Of a stretch of 64,000 bases of DNA, positions 2,114 to 26,901 are shown in pieces; the stretch's first letter is position 1; the number at the start of each line of letters is the position of its first letter. The notes under the pieces are model-generated. The model had not been told where the DNA came from. It did no database searches and was given only the letters and a program-made list of their open reading frames with translations. This DNA is from an uncultured Hymenobacter sp. Lineage in GTDB: Bacteria > Bacteroidota > Bacteroidia > Cytophagales > Hymenobacteraceae. A program made the translations under genes and the position numbers. The stretch lies in NCBI GenBank assembly GCA_913778455.1, contig CAJYVK010000374.1:29280-93279 (forward strand), written 5' to 3'.

Positions 2114-2269
2114 AGAACCAGTTAGGTCAAGACTGAAAAAGAAAAAGCATGCTATTTATCTCTGTAAGTCAAGTAGATAGGTGAGAACGGCATCCCTCCC
2201 GCCCAACCTGGCGCAGCATTGGTAGCTCCTGGCACGAAGCGTTCGGCATTAGGCCGCCACTTTCGCGCT

Positions 2270-4027
2270 ATGAGTGTCAAAACATCCATCACTATCGGGC
2301 TGCTGGCCATGCTGGCGCTGCTGGTCGGCGGCGGCAGCTACGCCTACTACACGGTGCAGCGTCTGGAGCACAGTACCCGGGCCATTCTGCAAGACAATTT
2401 TTACTCGGTCCAGCTGGGGCAGGGCATGTTGCAGGCCCTCGACCAGGTAGAGGCCGCGCCCTCGGCGGCGGGCCTGGTCCAGTTTGAAGCGCAACTGACC
2501 CGCGAGGCGGGCAACGTGACCGAGCGCGGCGAGCGGGCGCTCGTCGATGACCTGACGCAGACGCTGGCCCGCTACCGCACCCAGCCCAGCGCGGCCGACC
2601 TGGCCCAACTGCGCCGCCAGACTCACCGTATGGTAGAGCTTAATATGCAGGCCCTGACGCGCAAGAACGCCGCCGCTGCCCACGCCGCTACCGTGGCGAG
2701 CCGCTACCTCATCCTCTGCACGGTGGTGGGCCTGCTGCTGGCATTGTCGCTGGTCCTCAGCGTGCCCGAAGCCGCCGTGAGCGGGCTGCGCAAGCTGTCG
2801 GCCAGCATCGCGCACGCCACGCAGGGCGACTTTGCCGCCACTATTCCGGTCGAGAGCCACGACGAGTTCGGGCGAGTAGCCGAGGGTTTCAATCGCCTGC
2901 TGGTGCAGCTCAACACCTTCCGCCACACCAACCTGGCGGGCATCATGGCCGAGCGCAACCGCGCCGCCAGCATCGTGCGCACGCTCGACGAAGGCATTTT
3001 ACTGCTCGATGAAAACGGGCAAATATTAGTGGCCAACCCATTGGCCTGTAATCTGCTGGGCCTGCCCGAGCGCCAGGTAATCGGCCGGCTGGCCCCGGAG
3101 CTGGCCGAGCAGCAGCCGCTGCTGCACCAGTGGCTGGCCTACGCGCAACGGCCGGCTTCCCGCCGCACGGGGGCGCTGCCCTTCACCGCGACGCAGCAGG
3201 GCGAAGAGGGCCATTACCACTTGGTAGTGCACGACGTGCTGAGCCCCAGCCCCACGCTGGGCCACCTGGAGCTGGCTGGCACCATCCTGGCCTTGCACAA
3301 CGTGTCGGACTTTGCGCGGCGCGACCAAACCAAGTCGCACTTCCTGGCCACCGTGAGCCACGAGCTGCGCACACCCCTCTCGACCATTAATTTCCACCTC
3401 AAGCTGCTACAAGACCCCCGCGTGGGTACCCTCACCGCCGAGCAGCAAGAGATACTGACCAGCGTGAAGCAGGAAAACCAGCGGCTGCTGGCCCTTACCG
3501 GCAACCTGCTCGACGTATCGCGCCTCGAAAGCGAAACCCTGCCCCTCGATGCCCAGCCCGTGCCCGTGGCTGAGCTCGTGGCCCAGGCCACCGCGCCCGT
3601 GCAGCTTCAACTCGCGCCCAAGCACTTGCAGCTCGCCACGCAGCTCCCGGCCGACCTGCCCCCCGTGCGAGCCGACCGCGAAAAAACGGTGTGGGTGCTG
3701 CTCAACCTGCTCACCAACGCCGTGCGCCACTCGCCCGAAGGCACCACCATCGCCATCACGGCCGCCCGTACGCCCAATGGCCGCGCCGTGCGCGTGGCCG
3801 TGCAAGACCACGGCCCCGGCATTGCCCCGGAAGATCAGGAGCGCATTTTTCACCGCTTCACCCAGCTGGCCAGTGAGGGCGACGCGCCCCGCACCGGCAG
3901 CGGCCTGGGCCTGAGCATCGGCCGCGAGTTTATCAGCTCGCAGGGCGGGCAGCTGGGCGTCGAGAGCGCACTGGGGGCCGGGAGTACCTTCTTTTTTACG
4001 CTTCCCATTGCGGATGAGCTGAGCTAA
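2270..4027 (+). CDS. Membrane sensor histidine kinase (HAMP-PAS-HisKA-HATPase)
   Basis: Two TM segments, HAMP-like segment, PAS-like region, H-box TVSHELRTPL, N/G boxes (LLTNAVRHSP, DHGPGIAPED, GSGLGLSIG). Confidence 0.92.
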   Translation: MSVKTSITIGLLAMLALLVGGGSYAYYTVQRLEHSTRAILQDNFYSVQLGQGMLQALDQVEAAPSAAGLVQFEAQLTREAGNVTERGERALVDDLTQTLARYRTQPSAADLAQLRRQTHRMVELNMQALTRKNAAAAHAATVASRYLILCTVVGLLLALSLVLSVPEAAVSGLRKLSASIAHATQGDFAATIPVESHDEFGRVAEGFNRLLVQLNTFRHTNLAGIMAERNRAASIVRTLDEGILLLDENGQILVANPLACNLLGLPERQVIGRLAPELAEQQPLLHQWLAYAQRPASRRTGALPFTATQQGEEGHYHLVVHDVLSPSPTLGHLELAGTILALHNVSDFARRDQTKSHFLATVSHELRTPLSTINFHLKLLQDPRVGTLTAEQQEILTSVKQENQRLLALTGNLLDVSRLESETLPLDAQPVPVAELVAQATAPVQLQLAPKHLQLATQLPADLPPVRADREKTVWVLLNLLTNAVRHSPEGTTIAITAARTPNGRAVRVAVQDHGPGIAPEDQERIFHRFTQLASEGDAPRTGSGLGLSIGREFISSQGGQLGVESALGAGSTFFFTLPIADELS

Positions 4028-6250: not shown

Positions 6251-6332
6251 TATGCGTTAGGGCAATACTCAATCCCTAACATTGTATCTTGATTTTGGGC
6301 CATTACCACCCCGCCCGCCCCGATTACTTGCC

Positions 6333-7733
<1,401 letters not shown>

Positions 7734-8293: not shown

Positions 8294-8309
8294 TGGCACT
8301 GGCCTTGGT
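8294..8309 (+). promoter_or_regulatory. Candidate sigma54 -24/-12 promoter (imperfect)
   Basis: TGGCAC-TGGCC-TTGGT; GG conserved, -12 GC is GG; about 80-100 bp downstream of motif copies. Confidence 0.35.
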
Positions 8310-8352
8310 AAAAGGGATTTGCCGCCAGCTAGTTGGCGGCAAGTCCCTTTTT
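8310..8352 (+). terminator. Terminator-like hairpin plus T-tract directly upstream of the 8362 start codon
   Basis: AAAGGGATTTGCCGCC-agctagtt-GGCGGCAAGTCCCTTTTTT. Confidence 0.6.
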
Positions 8353-8361
8353 TCTTATTCC

Positions 8362-8712
8362 ATGACTGCCCACGAAACGGCCGACCTGCTCACCCTGGAA
8401 TTTCCGGAGCTGGACGCCGAGCTGCACGCCCCCAGTACGCTGCACAGCGTGTACCGCCAGCTCGATTGCTTCGCCGCCTTCACCCGCCGCGCCCTGAGCG
8501 CCGACCGCCTGGCTCTGCTGCGCCGTTGCTTCGCCGTGGCCGATAGCCTGCTGCGCCACGCCGACCACTACCTCACCCGCGCCATCGAAAACGTGTACCT
8601 CCACGGCCTGCACCTCGACGGCAGCACCGCCCACCTGCACCTGGCCCAGCAGCTCATGCCCCAGGGTCTGTACCGGGCTTACTGCCACCCCCATACCAAC
8701 ATGCTCCCCTAA
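8362..8712 (+). CDS. DUF7674-like small protein
   Basis: MTAHETADLLTLEFPELDAELHAPSTLHSVYRQLDCFAAFTRRAL...ENVYLHGLHLD; sits between regulators and kdp genes. Confidence 0.55.
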   Translation: MTAHETADLLTLEFPELDAELHAPSTLHSVYRQLDCFAAFTRRALSADRLALLRRCFAVADSLLRHADHYLTRAIENVYLHGLHLDGSTAHLHLAQQLMPQGLYRAYCHPHTNMLP

Positions 8713-13039: not shown

Positions 13040-13154
13040 TAGCCGTTAGCTGCTAGCTATTAGCTGTTAGCTTTTTGCTTGACATCTAAAGTAGCAGCTG
13101 CCTGCTGCCATCTACATTAAAAAGCTAACAGCTAGCGGCTAATAGCTAGCAGCT
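13040..13154. repeat. Second inverted heptad repeat of the same family, kdpB-kdpC gap
   Basis: AGCCGTTAGCTGCTAGCTATTAGCTGTTAGCTTTT ... AAAAAGCTAACAGCTAGCGGCTAATAGCTAGCAGCT. Confidence 0.9.
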
Positions 13155-13160
13155 CAACAT

Positions 13161-13724
13161 ATGAAATCCCATCTCCTGCCCGCCATCCGCCTCACCCTGG
13201 CCCTGCTGGTGCTGTGCTGCGTTATTTACCCCGCCATTGTGTGGGCCGCTGCTCAACTGGCCCCCGGCCACGGCGAGGGCGAACAAATTACCAAAAATGG
13301 CCGCCTGGTGGGCTTTGCCAACGTGGGCCAGAAGTTCGACAAGCCCGAGTATTTCAACTCGCGGCCCTCGGCGGTGGGCTACAAGGCCGACGGCTCGGCC
13401 GGCTCCAACAAAGGCCCCAGCAACCCCGACTACCTGAAGGAAGTACAAGCCCGCCTCGACACCTTCCTGGTGCAGAACCCCAGCGTGCACCGCAACGAGG
13501 TGCCCGCCGAGCTCATCACGGCCAGCGGTTCGGGCCTCGACCCCGACTTGTCGGTGCAGGGCGCCTTGGTGCAGGTGGCCCGCGTGGCCCAGGCCCGCGG
13601 CCTGGCCCCGGCCAAGGTGCAGGCCCTGGTGGCCCAGCACATTCAGTCGGGTACGCTCGGTCCCGACCGCGTCAACGTGCTCAAGCTCAACCTGGCGCTG
13701 GACGACATGACCGGCAAAAAGTAG
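13161..13724 (+). CDS. kdpC: K+-transporting ATPase subunit C
   Basis: FNSRPSAVGYKADGSAGSNKGPSNPDYL, ASGSGLDPDLS. Confidence 0.96.
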   Translation: MKSHLLPAIRLTLALLVLCCVIYPAIVWAAAQLAPGHGEGEQITKNGRLVGFANVGQKFDKPEYFNSRPSAVGYKADGSAGSNKGPSNPDYLKEVQARLDTFLVQNPSVHRNEVPAELITASGSGLDPDLSVQGALVQVARVAQARGLAPAKVQALVAQHIQSGTLGPDRVNVLKLNLALDDMTGKK

Positions 13725-17043: not shown

Positions 17044-18216
17044 ATGTCTCCTTCTGACGACCTCCAGCGCGACGCCTCGGCCGAGCGGTTTCTGCGCCTG
17101 GTGCAGCAGAAGCGGCGCGGCACGCTCAAAATCTACCTGGGCCTGGCCGCCGGCGTGGGCAAAACCTACCGCATGCTGCAAGAAGCCCAGGAGCTGCACC
17201 GCTACGGCGTAGACGTGCTGCTGGGCTACGTCGAAACCCACGGCCGGCCCGGCACCGTGGCCCAGCTCACTCGTGAGCTGCCGCTGCTGCCCCGCAAGCA
17301 GGTTTTTTACAAGGGCCACGCGGTGGAGGAGATGGACCTCGACGGCATCGAGCAGCGCCGCCCGCAGGTGGTAATCGTGGATGAGCTGGCCCACAGCAAC
17401 GTGCCCGGCTCGCGCCACGAAAAGCGCTGGCAGGACGTGCGCGAGCTGGTAGAGCGCGGCATCTCGGTGATAACGGCCGTGAACGTGCAGCACCTCGAAA
17501 GCCTGCACGACCAAGTGCTGAAAATCACGGGTACCGACGTGACCGAGCGCATCCCCGACAGCCTGCTGCGCGAGGCCGACGAGGTAATCAACGTGGACCT
17601 CACGGTGGGCGAGCTGCGTGCCCGCCTCGAAGAAGGCAAAATCTACGACGCAGCCAAGGTGCCCACCGCGCTGGCTAATTTCTTTCAGGCCGAAAACCTC
17701 TTGCAATTGCGGCGGCTGGCCGTGCGCGAGGTGGCCCAGCTGCTGGGCCGGCAGGTTGAAACCGGGGCGGGTGGGGCGGCGGCCGTGCCCGCCCAGCGCC
17801 GCAACGACGACCGCCTGCTGGCCTGCATCAATACCAACGAGCGGGCCGCCAAGGAAATAATTCGCAAGGCATCGCGTCTGGCCGACCGCTTCAGCGCCGC
17901 CGCCTGGTACGTGCTCTACGTGCAGACCGGCGAGGAAAGCGCCGACCGCATCGGCCTGGCCGCCCAGCGCCACCTCATCAACAACTTGCAGCTCGCCACT
18001 GAGCTGGGCGCGCAGATTATGCGCGTGAAGGACAACGACATCGTGGCGGCCATCCGCCGGGTGGCGCAGGAGAAAGAGGCCACGCTGCTCGTGTGCGGCA
18101 TCACCCGCGAGAAGGGCCTGTGGCAGCGCCTGAGCCGCGGCGGCGTCACGCACGATTTGCTCACGGCCGTAGCCAGTGATGGCAGCGACCTGGATGTGTA
18201 TTTAATAACCTATTGA
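17044..18216 (+). CDS. kdpD: KdpD-like sensor: KdpD domain plus universal stress domain, no kinase
   Basis: GLAAGVGKTYRMLQEA, GYVETHGRPGT, DELAHSNVPGSRHEKRWQDV; C-terminal USP; ends before any HisKA. Confidence 0.9.
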   Translation: MSPSDDLQRDASAERFLRLVQQKRRGTLKIYLGLAAGVGKTYRMLQEAQELHRYGVDVLLGYVETHGRPGTVAQLTRELPLLPRKQVFYKGHAVEEMDLDGIEQRRPQVVIVDELAHSNVPGSRHEKRWQDVRELVERGISVITAVNVQHLESLHDQVLKITGTDVTERIPDSLLREADEVINVDLTVGELRARLEEGKIYDAAKVPTALANFFQAENLLQLRRLAVREVAQLLGRQVETGAGGAAAVPAQRRNDDRLLACINTNERAAKEIIRKASRLADRFSAAAWYVLYVQTGEESADRIGLAAQRHLINNLQLATELGAQIMRVKDNDIVAAIRRVAQEKEATLLVCGITREKGLWQRLSRGGVTHDLLTAVASDGSDLDVYLITY

Positions 18217-18240
18217 TTATGTAGCTTATCGATTGTGTGC

Positions 18241-18321
18241 TTGTAACACCAAGCTCCGGCTTGGTGAAGCATCTGGTGAGTAAATCCGGACGCATCACCA
18301 AGCCGGAGCTTGGTGTTACAA
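18241..18321. repeat. Perfect 27-bp-arm inverted repeat between KdpD-like and kinase genes
   Basis: TTGTAACACCAAGCTCCGGCTTGGTGA (18241-18267) vs TCACCAAGCCGGAGCTTGGTGTTACAA (18295-18321). Confidence 0.95.
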
Positions 18322-18353
18322 ACCCGAGCGATAGCCTAAGCCCCCGACCTCCC

Positions 18354-20129
18354 ATGAACCTCAAAACCAAAATCACGCTCGGCTTCACGGCGATGCTGCT
18401 GCTCTTGCTCGGCCTCGGGGGCTATGCCTTCTACACGGTGCAGCGCCTCGACCGCAGCTCGCGTAACGTACTCAAGGACAACTTTTATTCCGTAGAGCTG
18501 GGCCAGCAGATGCAGCGCGCCCTCGACCGCATGGAAACCGACCCCAGCGCGCCCCAGGGCCTGCCCCAGTTTCGGCAGAGCCTCACGCGTGAGGCCGGCA
18601 ACATTACGGAGGTGGGCGAGCGGGAGGTGGTGGATAGCCTGACGCAAAACCAGGCGGAGTTTCAGCGCCTGCTCGACGCCGGCACGCCGCCCGCTGGCCG
18701 CGCCGCCACCCTGGCGCTGCTGCGTCAGCAAACCTACCGGATGGTGGCCCTCAACACGGCCGCGCTCACCCGCAAAAACGAGCAGGCCAACCACAACGCT
18801 GCCCGGTCTAACCAATACCTGGCCCTCATCGTGGGCCTGAGCCTGCTGCTGGGGCTGATGTTCGTGCTGAGCGTGCCCGAGGCGGCCGTAGGGCCGCTGC
18901 GCAAGCTCACCAACAGCCTGGAGCACGCTACCGAGCAGGATTTTACGGCTACCATTCCTATTGAAAGCCAGGACGAGTACGGCCGCGTGGCCACGGCCTT
19001 CAACCGCATGCTGGTGCAGCTGCAAGAGTACCGGGCCTCCACGCTGGCCGAGCTGCTGGCCGAGCGCAACCGCACTGCCAGCATCGTGAGCGGCCTCGAC
19101 GAGGGGCTGTTGCTGCTCGATGAAAACCGCCGCATCATCCTGGCCAATCCCGCCGCCTGCACCCTGCTGAGCCTGCCTGCCGAGGCCCTGCTCGGTAAGC
19201 CCGCTGCTGAGGTTGCCAAAACCAACGACCTGCTGCGCGAAATCCTGCGCCCGCTTGACGTGGAGGCCGCCCGCCGCGAGCAGGCCGTGGCCGATGCCCC
19301 GCTGCTGCGCATCGCGCAGCGCGGCGAGGAAGCCTTTTACCGGCTGGCCATGCAGGAATTGGTTTCCTTCAACGAGGCACGGCAGAAAAACGAGTTCGTG
19401 GGCCAGATTATCACCCTGCGCAACGTGTCGGACTACAAGAAGCTCGACCAGGTAAAGTCGAATTTCCTGGCTACCGTATCGCACGAGCTAAAAACACCGC
19501 TCAGCAGCATCAACATCAACACCAAGCTCTTGCAGGATGAACGCCTGCCCGCCGACGAGCGCCAGCGCATCACCGGTCACATCCGGCAGGAAACCCAGCG
19601 CCTCCAGCGCATGGTGAGCGAGCTGCTCGACGTGTCGCGCCTCGACGCGGGGGCCGGCATTCAGCTCGACCTGCACCCCACCAGCCTGGCCGACGTGGTG
19701 CGCTTCGCCACCTCCACCGTCGAGCCCCAATTGCGCGACAAGCGAATTGCCCTCGACCTGCAACTGCCCGCCGAGCTGCCGCTCGTGCGTGCCGACGTGG
19801 AAAAAGCCACCTGGGTGCTCATCAACCTGCTGGCCAACGCCATCCGCTACGCCCCCAGCGGTGAGCCGCTCACGGTGCGCGCCGCCGTGGCCGGGGCCTT
19901 CGTGCAAGTGAGCGTGCAGGATCGCGGCCCCGGTATTGCGGCCGAAAACCACGACAAGATCTTCCAGCGCTTCGCCCAGATACCCGACAAAACCGGCTAC
20001 CGCGGCGGCTCCGGCTTGGGTCTGAGCATCGCCCGCGAGTTTATCACCACCCAGGGCGGCCGGCTGTGGGTGGAGAGCGAACTGGGCAGTGGCAGCACGT
20101 TCAGCTTCACCCTGCCCATCGCGAAGTAG
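18354..20129 (+). CDS. Sensor histidine kinase (HAMP-PAS-HisKA-HATPase), paralogue of 2270-4027
   Basis: TVSHELKTPLSSININTKL, LLANAIRYAP, DRGPGIAAEN, GSGLGLSIAREF; start after palindrome. Confidence 0.92.
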   Translation: MNLKTKITLGFTAMLLLLLGLGGYAFYTVQRLDRSSRNVLKDNFYSVELGQQMQRALDRMETDPSAPQGLPQFRQSLTREAGNITEVGEREVVDSLTQNQAEFQRLLDAGTPPAGRAATLALLRQQTYRMVALNTAALTRKNEQANHNAARSNQYLALIVGLSLLLGLMFVLSVPEAAVGPLRKLTNSLEHATEQDFTATIPIESQDEYGRVATAFNRMLVQLQEYRASTLAELLAERNRTASIVSGLDEGLLLLDENRRIILANPAACTLLSLPAEALLGKPAAEVAKTNDLLREILRPLDVEAARREQAVADAPLLRIAQRGEEAFYRLAMQELVSFNEARQKNEFVGQIITLRNVSDYKKLDQVKSNFLATVSHELKTPLSSININTKLLQDERLPADERQRITGHIRQETQRLQRMVSELLDVSRLDAGAGIQLDLHPTSLADVVRFATSTVEPQLRDKRIALDLQLPAELPLVRADVEKATWVLINLLANAIRYAPSGEPLTVRAAVAGAFVQVSVQDRGPGIAAENHDKIFQRFAQIPDKTGYRGGSGLGLSIAREFITTQGGRLWVESELGSGSTFSFTLPIAK

Positions 20130-22548: not shown

Positions 22549-23109
22549 CTACCGCAGCGCATCCAGGGCCAGGTTGAGGCGTAGCACGCTCACGTGCGCC
22601 GGCCCCATAAAGCCCAGCCAGGGTTGCTCAATGTGTTGGGTGACCAGTTGTTGCACCCGGGCGGCGGGCAGGTGCCGCGCCCGCGCCACGCGGGCCACCT
22701 GCACGTAGGCCGCCGCCGGCGATAAGTCGGGGTCGATGCCCGAGGCCGAGGCCGTCACTACTTCCGCGGGCACCTGCGCTTTGGCAACGCCGGGATTCTG
22801 GAGCAGAAACGTATCGAGCCGGGCGCGTACCACCGCGTGAAAATCGGGGTTATTCGGCCCCGCGTTCGAGGCCCCCGTGATGGCGGCATTGTAGTCCACG
22901 GCCGACGGCCGCCCCCAGAAGTAGCGCGCCTGGGTAAACTTCTGGCCGATGCGCTCGAAGCCCACCACGCGGCCCCCCGCCACTACCGGCGAGCCCGCCG
23001 CGCGCTGCGGTAGTAGCTGCGCCACGCCCCACAGCAGCCCCGGAAAGCCGAATCCAAATACGAGCAGCAACAGAACACTCACTAAAATCGGCTGCAAAAA
23101 AGATTTCAT
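22549..23109 (-). CDS. kdpC: Second KdpC (kdpC2)
   Basis: YFWGRPSAVDYNAAITGASNAGPNNPDF, ASASGIDPDLSPAAA; full length. Confidence 0.93.
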   Translation of the reverse strand: MKSFLQPILVSVLLLLVFGFGFPGLLWGVAQLLPQRAAGSPVVAGGRVVGFERIGQKFTQARYFWGRPSAVDYNAAITGASNAGPNNPDFHAVVRARLDTFLLQNPGVAKAQVPAEVVTASASGIDPDLSPAAAYVQVARVARARHLPAARVQQLVTQHIEQPWLGFMGPAHVSVLRLNLALDALR

Positions 23110-23205
23110 TGTAAGTAGAAAATTAGTATCTTATAAACAAGATTTAGCTGTTATGCTGAGCGCAGCATGACGACTGTTGTCTTTTTGCCACTGCCTTCGT
23201 ACCGC

Positions 23206-24912
23206 TTACTTCCCCCCGAAATACTCGGCCAGCGGCCCGAGCGTGAGAGCCGGGAAAAACAGCAGCGCCCCCAGAATGCCAATCACCACCAGCAGCAGCA
23301 CGCCAAACGTGAGGCTATCGAGCCGAATGGCCCCCGCGCCCGGCTCGGTGTAGGCTTTGGCCTGCAAGCGGGCGGCGATAAACAAGGCCCCCAGCAGCGG
23401 TACGAACCGTCCGCTGAGCATGGCCAGGCCCGGCACCAGGTTCCAGAACGGCGTATTGTCGCCCAGCGACTCGTAGCCCGAGCCGTTGCCCGCCGCCGCC
23501 GACACAAACTCGTAGAGCATGGCGCTGAAGCCGTGCGCCCCGGGGTTGGGCAGCCACTTGAGGGTGGTGGCCGCGCTGGGCGTGGTAGCCCACACCCAGG
23601 CCGCCAGCGCCGTGCACGCCAGCACCACCACGGGCTGGGCCACGGCCACCAGCGTCGCGGCCTGCATTTCGGGCGCTTCAATCTTCTTACCCAACAGCTC
23701 GGGCGAGCGGCCCACCATGAGGCTGGCCACGAAGGCTGCGATTATCAAGTAGATAAAGAAATTGAGAAAGCCCGTGCCCAGCCCGCCGAAGAAGGCGTCG
23801 ATTTGCATGAGCAACATAAACGGGGCACCCGTCAGCGACGTGAAGCTGTCCTGCGCCCCCACCAGGGTGCCGGCCGGAATGGCCATGTTGAGGGCGTTGT
23901 AATACGCCGTATGAAATACGCCGAAGCGGATTTCCTTGCCTTCGAGGTTGCCCGCCCCGGCGTCGATGCCCAGGGCGCTGAGCACTGGGTTGCCGTGCAG
24001 CTCGGCCAGCACGGCTGGCACCAGCAGCAGGAACAAGCCAGCCGTCATCACTCCAAAAATGAGCAGGGCCAGCCGCATCCGCTTTAAGTAAAAGCCCACC
24101 ATGAACACGAAGGCCATCGGCAAGAGCATCACCAGCAGGTGATGCAGCACGAAGGCGGCAAAATTGGGCGTTTCGAACGGGTGGGCGCAATTAGGGCCGA
24201 AGAATCCCCCGCCATTGGAGCCCAGCTCCTTGATGCTGAGCATGGCCGCCACCGGGCCGCGGGCCACGGTACCGGCCACGCCTTCGAGCGAGGTATAAGT
24301 CCCGGCGCCCTCAAACGTCATGGGTACGCCGGTGAGCAGTAGCCCCACCGAAAAAACAAAGCTTAGCGGTAGCAGCACGAGCAAGCACGAGCGCACCAGG
24401 TCTTGGTAGAAATTGCCCACCGTGGTAAGTTTTTCGGCCCGGCCCAGGGCGCGTACTACCGCCACCCCCACGGCCAGACTGGTGCCAGCGCTCACAAATT
24501 GCAAAAAGGTAAACACCGCCAGCTGAGCGAAATACGAGGCCCCCGTTTCGCCCGAGTAGTGCTGGGCGTTGGTGCTGGTGAGAAAGCTCACGGCCGTGTG
24601 CAACGCCTGCGTCAGCTCCATCGCCGGGATGTGGTCGGGGTTCCAGAACGGCAGCCTGTGCTGCACCAGCAAGATGCCGAGGCCCCAGAGCAGCCACACC
24701 GCATTCACGGCCAACAGGGCCCGCACATACTGGCCCAGCGTCATGGCCTGCGCGGGGTCGAGACCAGCGAGGCGGTAGAAGCCGCGTTCCAGGGGCGTGA
24801 GAAAGTGCAGCCAGGTGCGTTCGCCCGCGTACACGCGGGCCAGGTAGCGGCCCGTGGGCCAGGCTAGCAGAGCCGCCGCCCCGAAAAGCAGCAGCGCAGT
24901 CAATACATTCAT
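23206..24912 (-). CDS. kdpA: Second KdpA (kdpA2); adjacent to kdpC2 with no kdpB between
   Basis: STNAQHYSGE, GSNGGGFFGPNCAHPFETPN, GNGSGYESLGDNTPFWN; start at MNVLTALLLFG. Confidence 0.95.
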   Translation of the reverse strand: MNVLTALLLFGAAALLAWPTGRYLARVYAGERTWLHFLTPLERGFYRLAGLDPAQAMTLGQYVRALLAVNAVWLLWGLGILLVQHRLPFWNPDHIPAMELTQALHTAVSFLTSTNAQHYSGETGASYFAQLAVFTFLQFVSAGTSLAVGVAVVRALGRAEKLTTVGNFYQDLVRSCLLVLLPLSFVFSVGLLLTGVPMTFEGAGTYTSLEGVAGTVARGPVAAMLSIKELGSNGGGFFGPNCAHPFETPNFAAFVLHHLLVMLLPMAFVFMVGFYLKRMRLALLIFGVMTAGLFLLLVPAVLAELHGNPVLSALGIDAGAGNLEGKEIRFGVFHTAYYNALNMAIPAGTLVGAQDSFTSLTGAPFMLLMQIDAFFGGLGTGFLNFFIYLIIAAFVASLMVGRSPELLGKKIEAPEMQAATLVAVAQPVVVLACTALAAWVWATTPSAATTLKWLPNPGAHGFSAMLYEFVSAAAGNGSGYESLGDNTPFWNLVPGLAMLSGRFVPLLGALFIAARLQAKAYTEPGAGAIRLDSLTFGVLLLVVIGILGALLFFPALTLGPLAEYFGGK

Positions 24913-25295: not shown

Positions 25296-25311
25296 TGGCA
25301 CCTCCTTTGTA
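25296..25311 (+). promoter_or_regulatory. Candidate sigma54 promoter for the 25444 kinase-like gene
   Basis: TGGCAC-CTCCT-TTGTA; one mismatch at the -12 C; about 95 bp downstream of motif. Confidence 0.45.
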
Positions 25312-25443
25312 ATTATCGGCCCGAGCTATAGTGAGTAGTCCGGCAGCTAGCCGAACTGCGGCTAGCCTCTCGCTGGTCGGTAGCGCGCCAGGCGAGAGGC
25401 ATTTGCCGTGCCGGCTGCGGCTGGCTCCTAATTACTGAACCCT

Positions 25444-26901
25444 ATGAAATCGACCGACAAGAGTAGTATTGCCCTCGGCGTAGTACTGGCGCTGCTGCTG
25501 GGGGCTCCCGCCTACGTGTTTTATATGCTGTTGCGCCTCGGGCCGCTGGGTAGCGCGGCGGCCCGGGCCGACTACGGGGCGGCGCTGGCTGGCCAGCAGT
25601 TGGTACTGGTGCTGGCGGCAGGGGCAATGGGGCTGTTTCTGCTAAAATGGCGAGCCGCCCGCGCCGCGGAGGAGTCGTTGCGCGCGCTGCTGGCTGGCTT
25701 GGCCGCCGCCGGGCCGCAGCGGGCGACTATCAGCCTACCCACGGGCACCCCGGCCGAGCTCGACCAGCTGGCTGCCGCCTGCAACCACCTGCTGGGGCAG
25801 CTGCACGAGTGTCGAACCACCACGCTCACCCAGGTGATGACGGAGCGCGACTACCTGGCTACTGTGGTCAATGCCCTGGATGAGGCGCTGCTGGTGGTCG
25901 ATAAGGGTGGCCGCGTGCAGCTGGCCAACCCCGCCAGTAGCCGCCTGCTGGGCATTCCGCTGGCCGAGCTGGCCTGTGGCACGCTGCCCGAGTTGGCCCA
26001 GCGCAGTCCCCTGGCGGCGCAGCTGCTGCCGTACCTGGCTGGCCCGGCCGGTGAGCGCAGTACGGCACGGCCCTTCTTCACGCTGCCACAGCCGGGGGGC
26101 GAAGCGGCGTACCAGCTGCTAGTCGGGGCGGTGCGGACGTTCGAGGAAACCACCCAGACGGAGCAGACGGCTACTTTGCTAACCCTGCGCGATGTGTCGG
26201 ACTACAAAAAGCTCGACCAGGTGAAGTGGCGCTTCCTCACCACCGTGTCGCAGGAGCTGCACACACCGCTCTCGCGGATGCAGCTAAGCCTGCTGCGCCT
26301 GCAAGACGGTAAGTCCGGTCCCCTCACCCCCGAGCAGCACAACATTGCCTACACCCTCAGTCGCGATAGCAAGCACCTGCTGAAGGTGGTCCACGACCTG
26401 CTCGACGTGTCGCAGCTCGAAGCGGGGGCCATTCAGCTGAGCTTCCAGACGGCCCACTTGCACGACATCGTGCAGTTCGTGGTGGCGACCATCCGGCCCC
26501 AGCTCCAGCCCAAGCGCCTGGCGCTGGAGGTGCAGGTACCCGACAGCCTGCCCGCCGTGCGGGCCGACATCGAAAAAACGACCTGGGTGCTGCTCAGCTT
26601 GCTGGCCAACGCCATTCGCTACGCGCACTTGCAGGATACGCTGCGCATCCGGGCCAGCCTGCTGCCCACCGGCCAGCACGTGCAAGTGAGCGTGCAGGAC
26701 CAGGGGCCGGGCATCGCGCCCGAGTTGCAGGAGCGCATCTTTCAGCGCTTTACGCAGCTGCCCACCCAGGGCGGCAGCGGCCTGGGGCTGAGCATCGCCC
26801 GGGAGTTCATGGCCAGCCAGGGCGGGCAATTGGGCGTGGAGAGCGAAGTGGGCAAGGGTAGCACGTTCAGCTTCACGCTGCCCGTTGTTTCCGTGAAGTA
26901 G
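25444..26901 (+). CDS. Sensor kinase-like membrane protein with H-box His replaced by Gln
   Basis: Two TM, PAS-like region, TVSQELHTPLSRM in place of SHELxTPL; intact N/G boxes LLANAIRYAH, DQGPGIAPEL, GGSGLGLSIAREF. Confidence 0.88.
   Translation: MKSTDKSSIALGVVLALLLGAPAYVFYMLLRLGPLGSAAARADYGAALAGQQLVLVLAAGAMGLFLLKWRAARAAEESLRALLAGLAAAGPQRATISLPTGTPAELDQLAAACNHLLGQLHECRTTTLTQVMTERDYLATVVNALDEALLVVDKGGRVQLANPASSRLLGIPLAELACGTLPELAQRSPLAAQLLPYLAGPAGERSTARPFFTLPQPGGEAAYQLLVGAVRTFEETTQTEQTATLLTLRDVSDYKKLDQVKWRFLTTVSQELHTPLSRMQLSLLRLQDGKSGPLTPEQHNIAYTLSRDSKHLLKVVHDLLDVSQLEAGAIQLSFQTAHLHDIVQFVVATIRPQLQPKRLALEVQVPDSLPAVRADIEKTTWVLLSLLANAIRYAHLQDTLRIRASLLPTGQHVQVSVQDQGPGIAPELQERIFQRFTQLPTQGGSGLGLSIAREFMASQGGQLGVESEVGKGSTFSFTLPVVSVK

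Follow-up and report, generated by a model that had tools for sequence, protein, structure and literature searches.

A sensor kinase homologue encoded in a kdp island of an uncultured Hymenobacter sp., here called HKQ, has lost its phospho-acceptor histidine together with the first asparagine of its N-box and, judging from comparison with related sequences, the loss of the histidine is old, has a single origin and has been kept by purifying selection. On balance, and with a confidence a little above even, we consider HKQ to be a pseudokinase of the Kdp regulon, retained as a modulator of the split KdpD-type kinase or kinases. The gene lies in a stretch of 64,000 nucleotides, referred to below as the window:

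25444-26901, + strand: HKQ, pseudo-histidine kinase of 485 amino acids, intact open reading frame
26251-26253, + strand: CAG codon of Gln270, where alignments place the phospho-acceptor His
26596-26598, + strand: AGC codon of Ser385, replacing the first N-box Asn (Asn in 50/50 related kinases)

HKQ is composed of two predicted transmembrane helices separated by a short loop and followed by PAS, DHp and CA domains. Pfam recovered HisKA (PF00512, 44.6 bits) and HATPase_c (PF02518, 87.5 bits), both above their cut-offs, as well as PAS; the domain search found neither KdpD nor Usp domains in HKQ, which does not belong to NF038185. The H-box codons read GTG TCG CAG GAG CTG CAC ACA CCG (VSQELHTP), and Q270 aligns with the phospho-acceptor His both in the Pfam alignment and in phmmer alignments to solved kinases (PDB sequences), in agreement with the original prediction of a Gln at this place. 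That prediction had also assigned SHELRTP to both island paralogues, which is correct for HK1, whereas HK2 reads SHELKTP, and had described the N and G boxes as intact. This holds for the second N-box Asn and for the G1, F and G2 motifs, which are all retained, but not for the first Asn, with which S385 aligns in the phmmer alignments to solved kinases; the ATP lid is also some 5-6 residues shorter than in 50 related kinases. HKQ thus has the domains of an active kinase and lacks both the H-box His and a complete N-box, and this combination of a preserved fold and absent catalytic residues, conserved in 4/4 orthologues, is, at the level of sequence, that of a pseudo-histidine kinase. The structure prediction (six rows; pLDDT 61, pTM 0.35) was too poor for use or for searching.

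A search of 120 Hymenobacter genomes and of a one-genome-per-species collection identified three orthologues, in an uncultured Hymenobacter MAG (G107, 92% identity), in Hymenobacter sp. BT559 (G087, 65%) and in H. setariae Fur1 (G071, 63%). HKQ is rare: with the window genome (G000) included, it is carried by 4 of the 120 genomes of the genus. Aligning the orthologues, which had been suggested as a check on the Gln, gave Gln in all three and His in none. Their H-boxes (SQELHTP in G107, SQELRGP in BT559 and SQELQNS in H. setariae) indicate that the Gln is invariant while the neighbouring residues vary, its codon being CAG in three of the genes and CAA in BT559. A sequencing error or a strain mutation is excluded by the occurrence of Gln in four assemblies and through both codons. 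Gln270 is present in all four HKQ proteins vs His in 50/50 related kinases, and Ser385 likewise in all four vs Asn in 50/50. Altogether, six replacements (S262W, H270Q, L285R, R311H, R324Q and N385S) are fixed in the HKQ clade at columns that are invariant in the 50 compared kinases, and five of them fall in or beside the DHp domain. When 205 genomes of the family were scanned with a degenerate DNA pattern for F(L/F)xxV-S/T/C/W/R-Q-(E/D)-(L/F), no HisKA H-box with Gln was found outside the four HKQ genes; 15 of the remaining matches were translated, none of which was a HisKA H-box. The much shorter sensor noticed in the window sequence recurs in G107 and H. setariae, where most of the periplasmic sensor is also gone, but not in BT559, whose HKQ is a long protein with a full-length N-terminus and a HAMP domain.

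The maximum-likelihood tree, built from 54 kinase cores, unites the HKQ proteins in a single clade (100/100) with a long stem, nested inside a kinase group (95/89); those members of the group that were checked are encoded, in other Hymenobacter, next to kdpABC and the N-terminal half of KdpD. The dN/dS of HKQ between G000 and G107 is 0.127 (0.07 in DHp, 0.114 in CA and 0.231 in PAS), which lies among the values obtained for the rest of the island and argues that HKQ is under selection, and no stop or frameshift was found in the gene across the four genomes. Between BT559 and H. setariae, the kdp-linked kinases barely differ (branch lengths ~0.003), whereas the HKQ proteins have diverged widely and are encoded at different places, which suggests either rapid change in HKQ or its separate acquisition.

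The kdp-type promoter and leader that precede HKQ, as well as its descent from kdp-linked kinases, support a link to potassium regulation. The elements concerned are:

25296-25311, + strand: sigma54-like promoter of HKQ (TGGCACCTCCTTTGTA), with one mismatch to TGGCACN5TTGCW, at the -12 C; conserved in 4 genomes with fixed spacing
25318-25410, + strand: structured leader RNA of HKQ, homologous to kdp-operon leaders in G048, G099, G108 and G012
8294-8309, + strand: like promoter element (TGGCACTGGCCTTGGT) before the DUF7674-kdpABC operon of the window

The upstream DNA common to all four HKQ genes comprises GGCAC-N4-CTTTG, with the GG exactly 21 nt before a block of ~93 nt, which is itself followed after 18-54 nt by the HKQ start codon. 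Promoter and leader are conserved despite the location of HKQ at three different genomic places. The -24 box and the TTG are conserved and their spacing is fixed; none of the four HKQ promoters has the -12 C, which is present at the kdp locus of G108, and a TGG...TTG element also lies 21-22 nt upstream of kdp leaders. Scanning the window with the sigma54 consensus alone gave 3 sites vs 3.09 expected, which is not significant; what speaks for a sigma54 promoter is the conservation, the invariant spacing and the evidence from the kdp loci.

The leader folds better than shuffled sequences (z -3.0). A covariance model built from the four HKQ leaders and run over 205 family genomes retrieved these four and only G048, G099 and G108 besides, in each case sharing the strand of kdpA and lying upstream of it, immediately 5' of the DUF7674 gene that precedes kdpA. 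A second model added G012 (genome-scan E 0.235), which we accepted because it again lies before DUF7674 and kdpA; the other matches at E 0.1-1 are probably due to chance. In the alignment of the eight leaders, which was fitted to the structure and thereby favours pairing statistics, 95% of cells pair and two-sided changes occur in 13/29 pairs, values that 0/500 shuffles reach, and structures slid along the alignment pair at only 30-41%. No Rfam family passed its gathering threshold in the window, the best weak match being P33 (17.8 bits vs 45), and the c-di-AMP riboswitch family was not among the Rfam matches of the leader even at E up to 5. Our survey of the literature on Hymenobacter kdp kinases, a sigma54 kdp leader or kdpA without kdpB returned nothing relevant.

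The kdp operon of the window has the promoter element (8294) and a simple hairpin, without the long leader; since this leader is different and shorter, the argument for shared control in this genome is the promoter type. The hairpin, which is strong, carries a T run (AAAAGGGATTTGCCGCC...GGCGGCAAGTCCCTTTTTT) and follows the sigma54-like element before the DUF7674 protein gene (8362-8712, + strand), is conserved in G107 and is a possible attenuator; element and hairpin together occupy 8294-8360, + strand. In several Hymenobacter kdp operons, the DUF7674 gene precedes kdpA, 3' of the leader RNA. It is conceivable, though we would not call it probable, that some Hymenobacter place their kdp operon and a kinase-dead paralogue under one new class of sigma54-driven structured leader. 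A single potassium-responsive, RNA-controlled switch would then produce both the pump and a protein that restrains or boosts the pump's own sensor, and the RNA may itself sense the potassium state.

The island that contains HKQ also encodes its likely partners and neighbours:

443-1894, + strand: RR1, NtrC-type response regulator (receiver, sigma54 activator, Fis HTH)
2219-4027, + strand: HK1, second canonical sensor kinase of the island, SHELRTP
6282-7733, + strand: RR2, NtrC-type response regulator
17044-18216, + strand: KdpD N-terminal half with KdpD and Usp domains, kinase domain absent
18237-20129, + strand: HK2, kdp-linked sensor kinase, kinase half of the split KdpD, SHELKTP; likely partner of HKQ
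22549-23109, - strand: kdpC2, neighbour of HKQ
23206-24912, - strand: kdpA2, neighbour of HKQ, start placed at MNVLTALLLF

Sigma54 activator domains were found in both RR1 and RR2, and rpoN is present in each of the four HKQ genomes. The entire island is syntenic in G107. In BT559 and H. setariae, HKQ is located away from kdp, at two different places, and no response regulator adjoins it in either genome; the BT559 DNA that is collinear with the H. setariae HKQ site stops just past glgB and lacks HKQ. A search for plasmids gave no match. A palindromic element of ~105 bases in BT559 (locus L056, ~13070-13180) occurs in dozens of copies, on both strands, in the H. setariae genome. Four Hymenobacter genomes, with one kdpB each, conserve the kdpA2-kdpC2 pair (22549-24912, - strand, in the window), which lacks a kdpB of its own; the KdpA2 proteins share altered residues near the selectivity filter (GSNGGG/GSNGAG, PAGT, A/S-GNGS), which suggests that kdpA2 and kdpC2 encode alternative subunits for one pump.

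We thus propose that HKQ descends from a kdp-linked sensor kinase, which would have lost its phospho-acceptor His and part of its ATP site once, in the common ancestor of the four proteins, and would then have been kept by selection. Given its kdp-type promoter and leader, hkq would most likely be transcribed by the sigma54 RNA polymerase under RR1/RR2 when potassium is limiting, with a transcription start expected directly 5' of GGCCCGAGC. The protein would not autophosphorylate on the usual residue and would most likely serve as a feedback modulator, its DHp pairing with the DHp of active HK2/HK1 or touching these kinases in another manner, and such a contact would shift their kinase/phosphatase balance. 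Of the conceivable mechanisms, heterodimerisation via DHp is the simplest, given that HKQ is a close paralogue and that its upper DHp helix is like the one in HK2 (both read VSDYKKLDQVK), whereas below position 270 the sequence is altered relative to the compared kinases. The role of heterodimer partner, one of the options of the original prediction, is favoured alongside that of modulator, as an interpretation of sequence. The loss of the His and of the first N-box Asn, the single origin, the purifying selection, the common promoter and leader architecture, the sigma54-type regulators and rpoN are direct readings of the DNA; from these, we infer potassium-dependent hkq expression, contact with HK2/HK1 and an effect on them, which could be in either direction. 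The old, selected loss of the His, taken with the kdp promoter type and the leader, suggests that HKQ is probably a working modulator and not a decaying gene. Against the modulator model stand the absence of the -12 C, the chance-level frequency of the consensus, the deviating leader of the kdp operon in this genome, the rarity of HKQ and its unstable position.

The regulator-facing positions of DHp are changed in HKQ, so its partner could also belong to another system. HKQ may function as DivL does, sensing whether a response regulator is phosphorylated, or scaffolding that regulator, and relaying this to another kinase, with no outward signalling. The retention under selection of PAS, DHp and CA is in keeping with such a role, as is the conserved non-His residue, which recalls Tyr550 of DivL (PMC4211667). 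However, no cognate regulator lies beside HKQ and the regulator-facing part of DHp is the one that has changed most, and we hold this role to be unlikely, if deserving of attention.

Weaker is the case for a dedicated phosphatase of RR1 or RR2 that, lacking the His, could do no more than dephosphorylate them and would act through an ExxT/N motif beside position 270. Such a motif in HisKA proteins needs Thr or Asn four residues after the His, and loss of the His need not abolish phosphatase activity. Glu271, at H+1, is indeed present in 4/4 HKQ and Thr274, at H+4, in the window protein and G107, and the Asn of H. setariae could serve; but H+4 is Gly in BT559 (SQELRGP), which makes the phosphatase option of the original prediction less likely. 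The ATP lid and N-box, usual helpers in this activity, are altered in HKQ, and HKQ departs from all the kinases at DHp positions that are normally turned towards the regulator, for example Leu285, which is Arg in 4/4 and which we presume to bear on regulator specificity. We judge this function improbable.

It seems more doubtful still that HKQ is the private regulator of the adjoining module. The kdpA2 gene, seen as an orphan in the original prediction, does adjoin HKQ, but the module consists of kdpA2 and kdpC2. The two are divergent neighbours in G000 and G107; G078 and G011, however, have kdpA2-kdpC2 with no HKQ alongside, and BT559 and H. setariae have HKQ with a single kdpA. As each occurs without the other, the proposed pairing with a kdpB-less module is not general and adjacency to kdpA2 is not the key. 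Finally, a recently inactivated, decaying duplicate, as suggested by the lost or shortened sensor in 3/4 HKQ, the long stem branch and the rare, scattered distribution, is scarcely credible and is contradicted by the low dN/dS, notably that of DHp, by the Gln kept through two codons amid varying flanks, by the other clade-specific residues fixed in four genomes, by the open frames and by the conserved promoter and leader.

Several known systems offer points of comparison. The Caulobacter pseudo-histidine kinase DivL has Tyr550 in place of the phospho-acceptor His, keeps all other boxes and has a known regulator partner (PMC4211667). HKQ resembles it in the HisKA/HATPase fold, in the replacement of the His, conserved among orthologues, and in the retention of the other domains; it differs in having Gln where DivL has Tyr, a changed N-box, a shorter lid and a place in a potassium regulon. 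RocA of group A Streptococcus, a membrane pseudokinase that modulates the kinase CovS by contact and needs no phospho-acceptor (PMC7028121), is likewise a membrane-bound relative of sensor kinases, the comparison being made at the level of the kinase fold; its DHp His is present but dispensable and CA residues are missing, whereas HKQ has lost the His itself. A ChrS variant of Corynebacterium, a non-functional kinase obtained by laboratory evolution through a frameshift in CA (PMC9491836), is a dead form that alters signalling by a paralogous kinase, to which HKQ may be likened, although HKQ is an old natural lineage. By analogy, HKQ may work as these three proteins do. The KdpD-like non-kinase potassium sensor (NCBIfam NF038185) is found in the same island (17044-18216) and also has no kinase activity; it corresponds to the KdpD/Usp sensory half, while HKQ is a paralogue of the kinase half. 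As for the leader, a c-di-AMP riboswitch precedes kdpFABC in Bacillus thuringiensis (PMC6488665) and is similarly a structured RNA ahead of a kdp operon, but the Hymenobacter leader scores below every Rfam gathering threshold, and the c-di-AMP family is absent from its matches up to E 5.

Pseudo-histidine kinases such as DivL and RocA were already known; what is new here is a His-to-Gln kinase lineage in a potassium regulon, and its leader RNA. The proposed sigma54/NtrC-type control of Kdp in Hymenobacter departs from the classical KdpD/KdpE scheme, and potassium-pump operons are preceded by a covarying structured leader RNA that lies outside every Rfam family. HKQ itself is a natural example of a sensor kinase whose phospho-acceptor disappeared in a single event, after which selection preserved the gene, and its likely partners are encoded in the same island. 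With these partners at hand, and since the DNA discloses its expression context, the idea that a dead kinase may act as a feedback modulator becomes directly testable.
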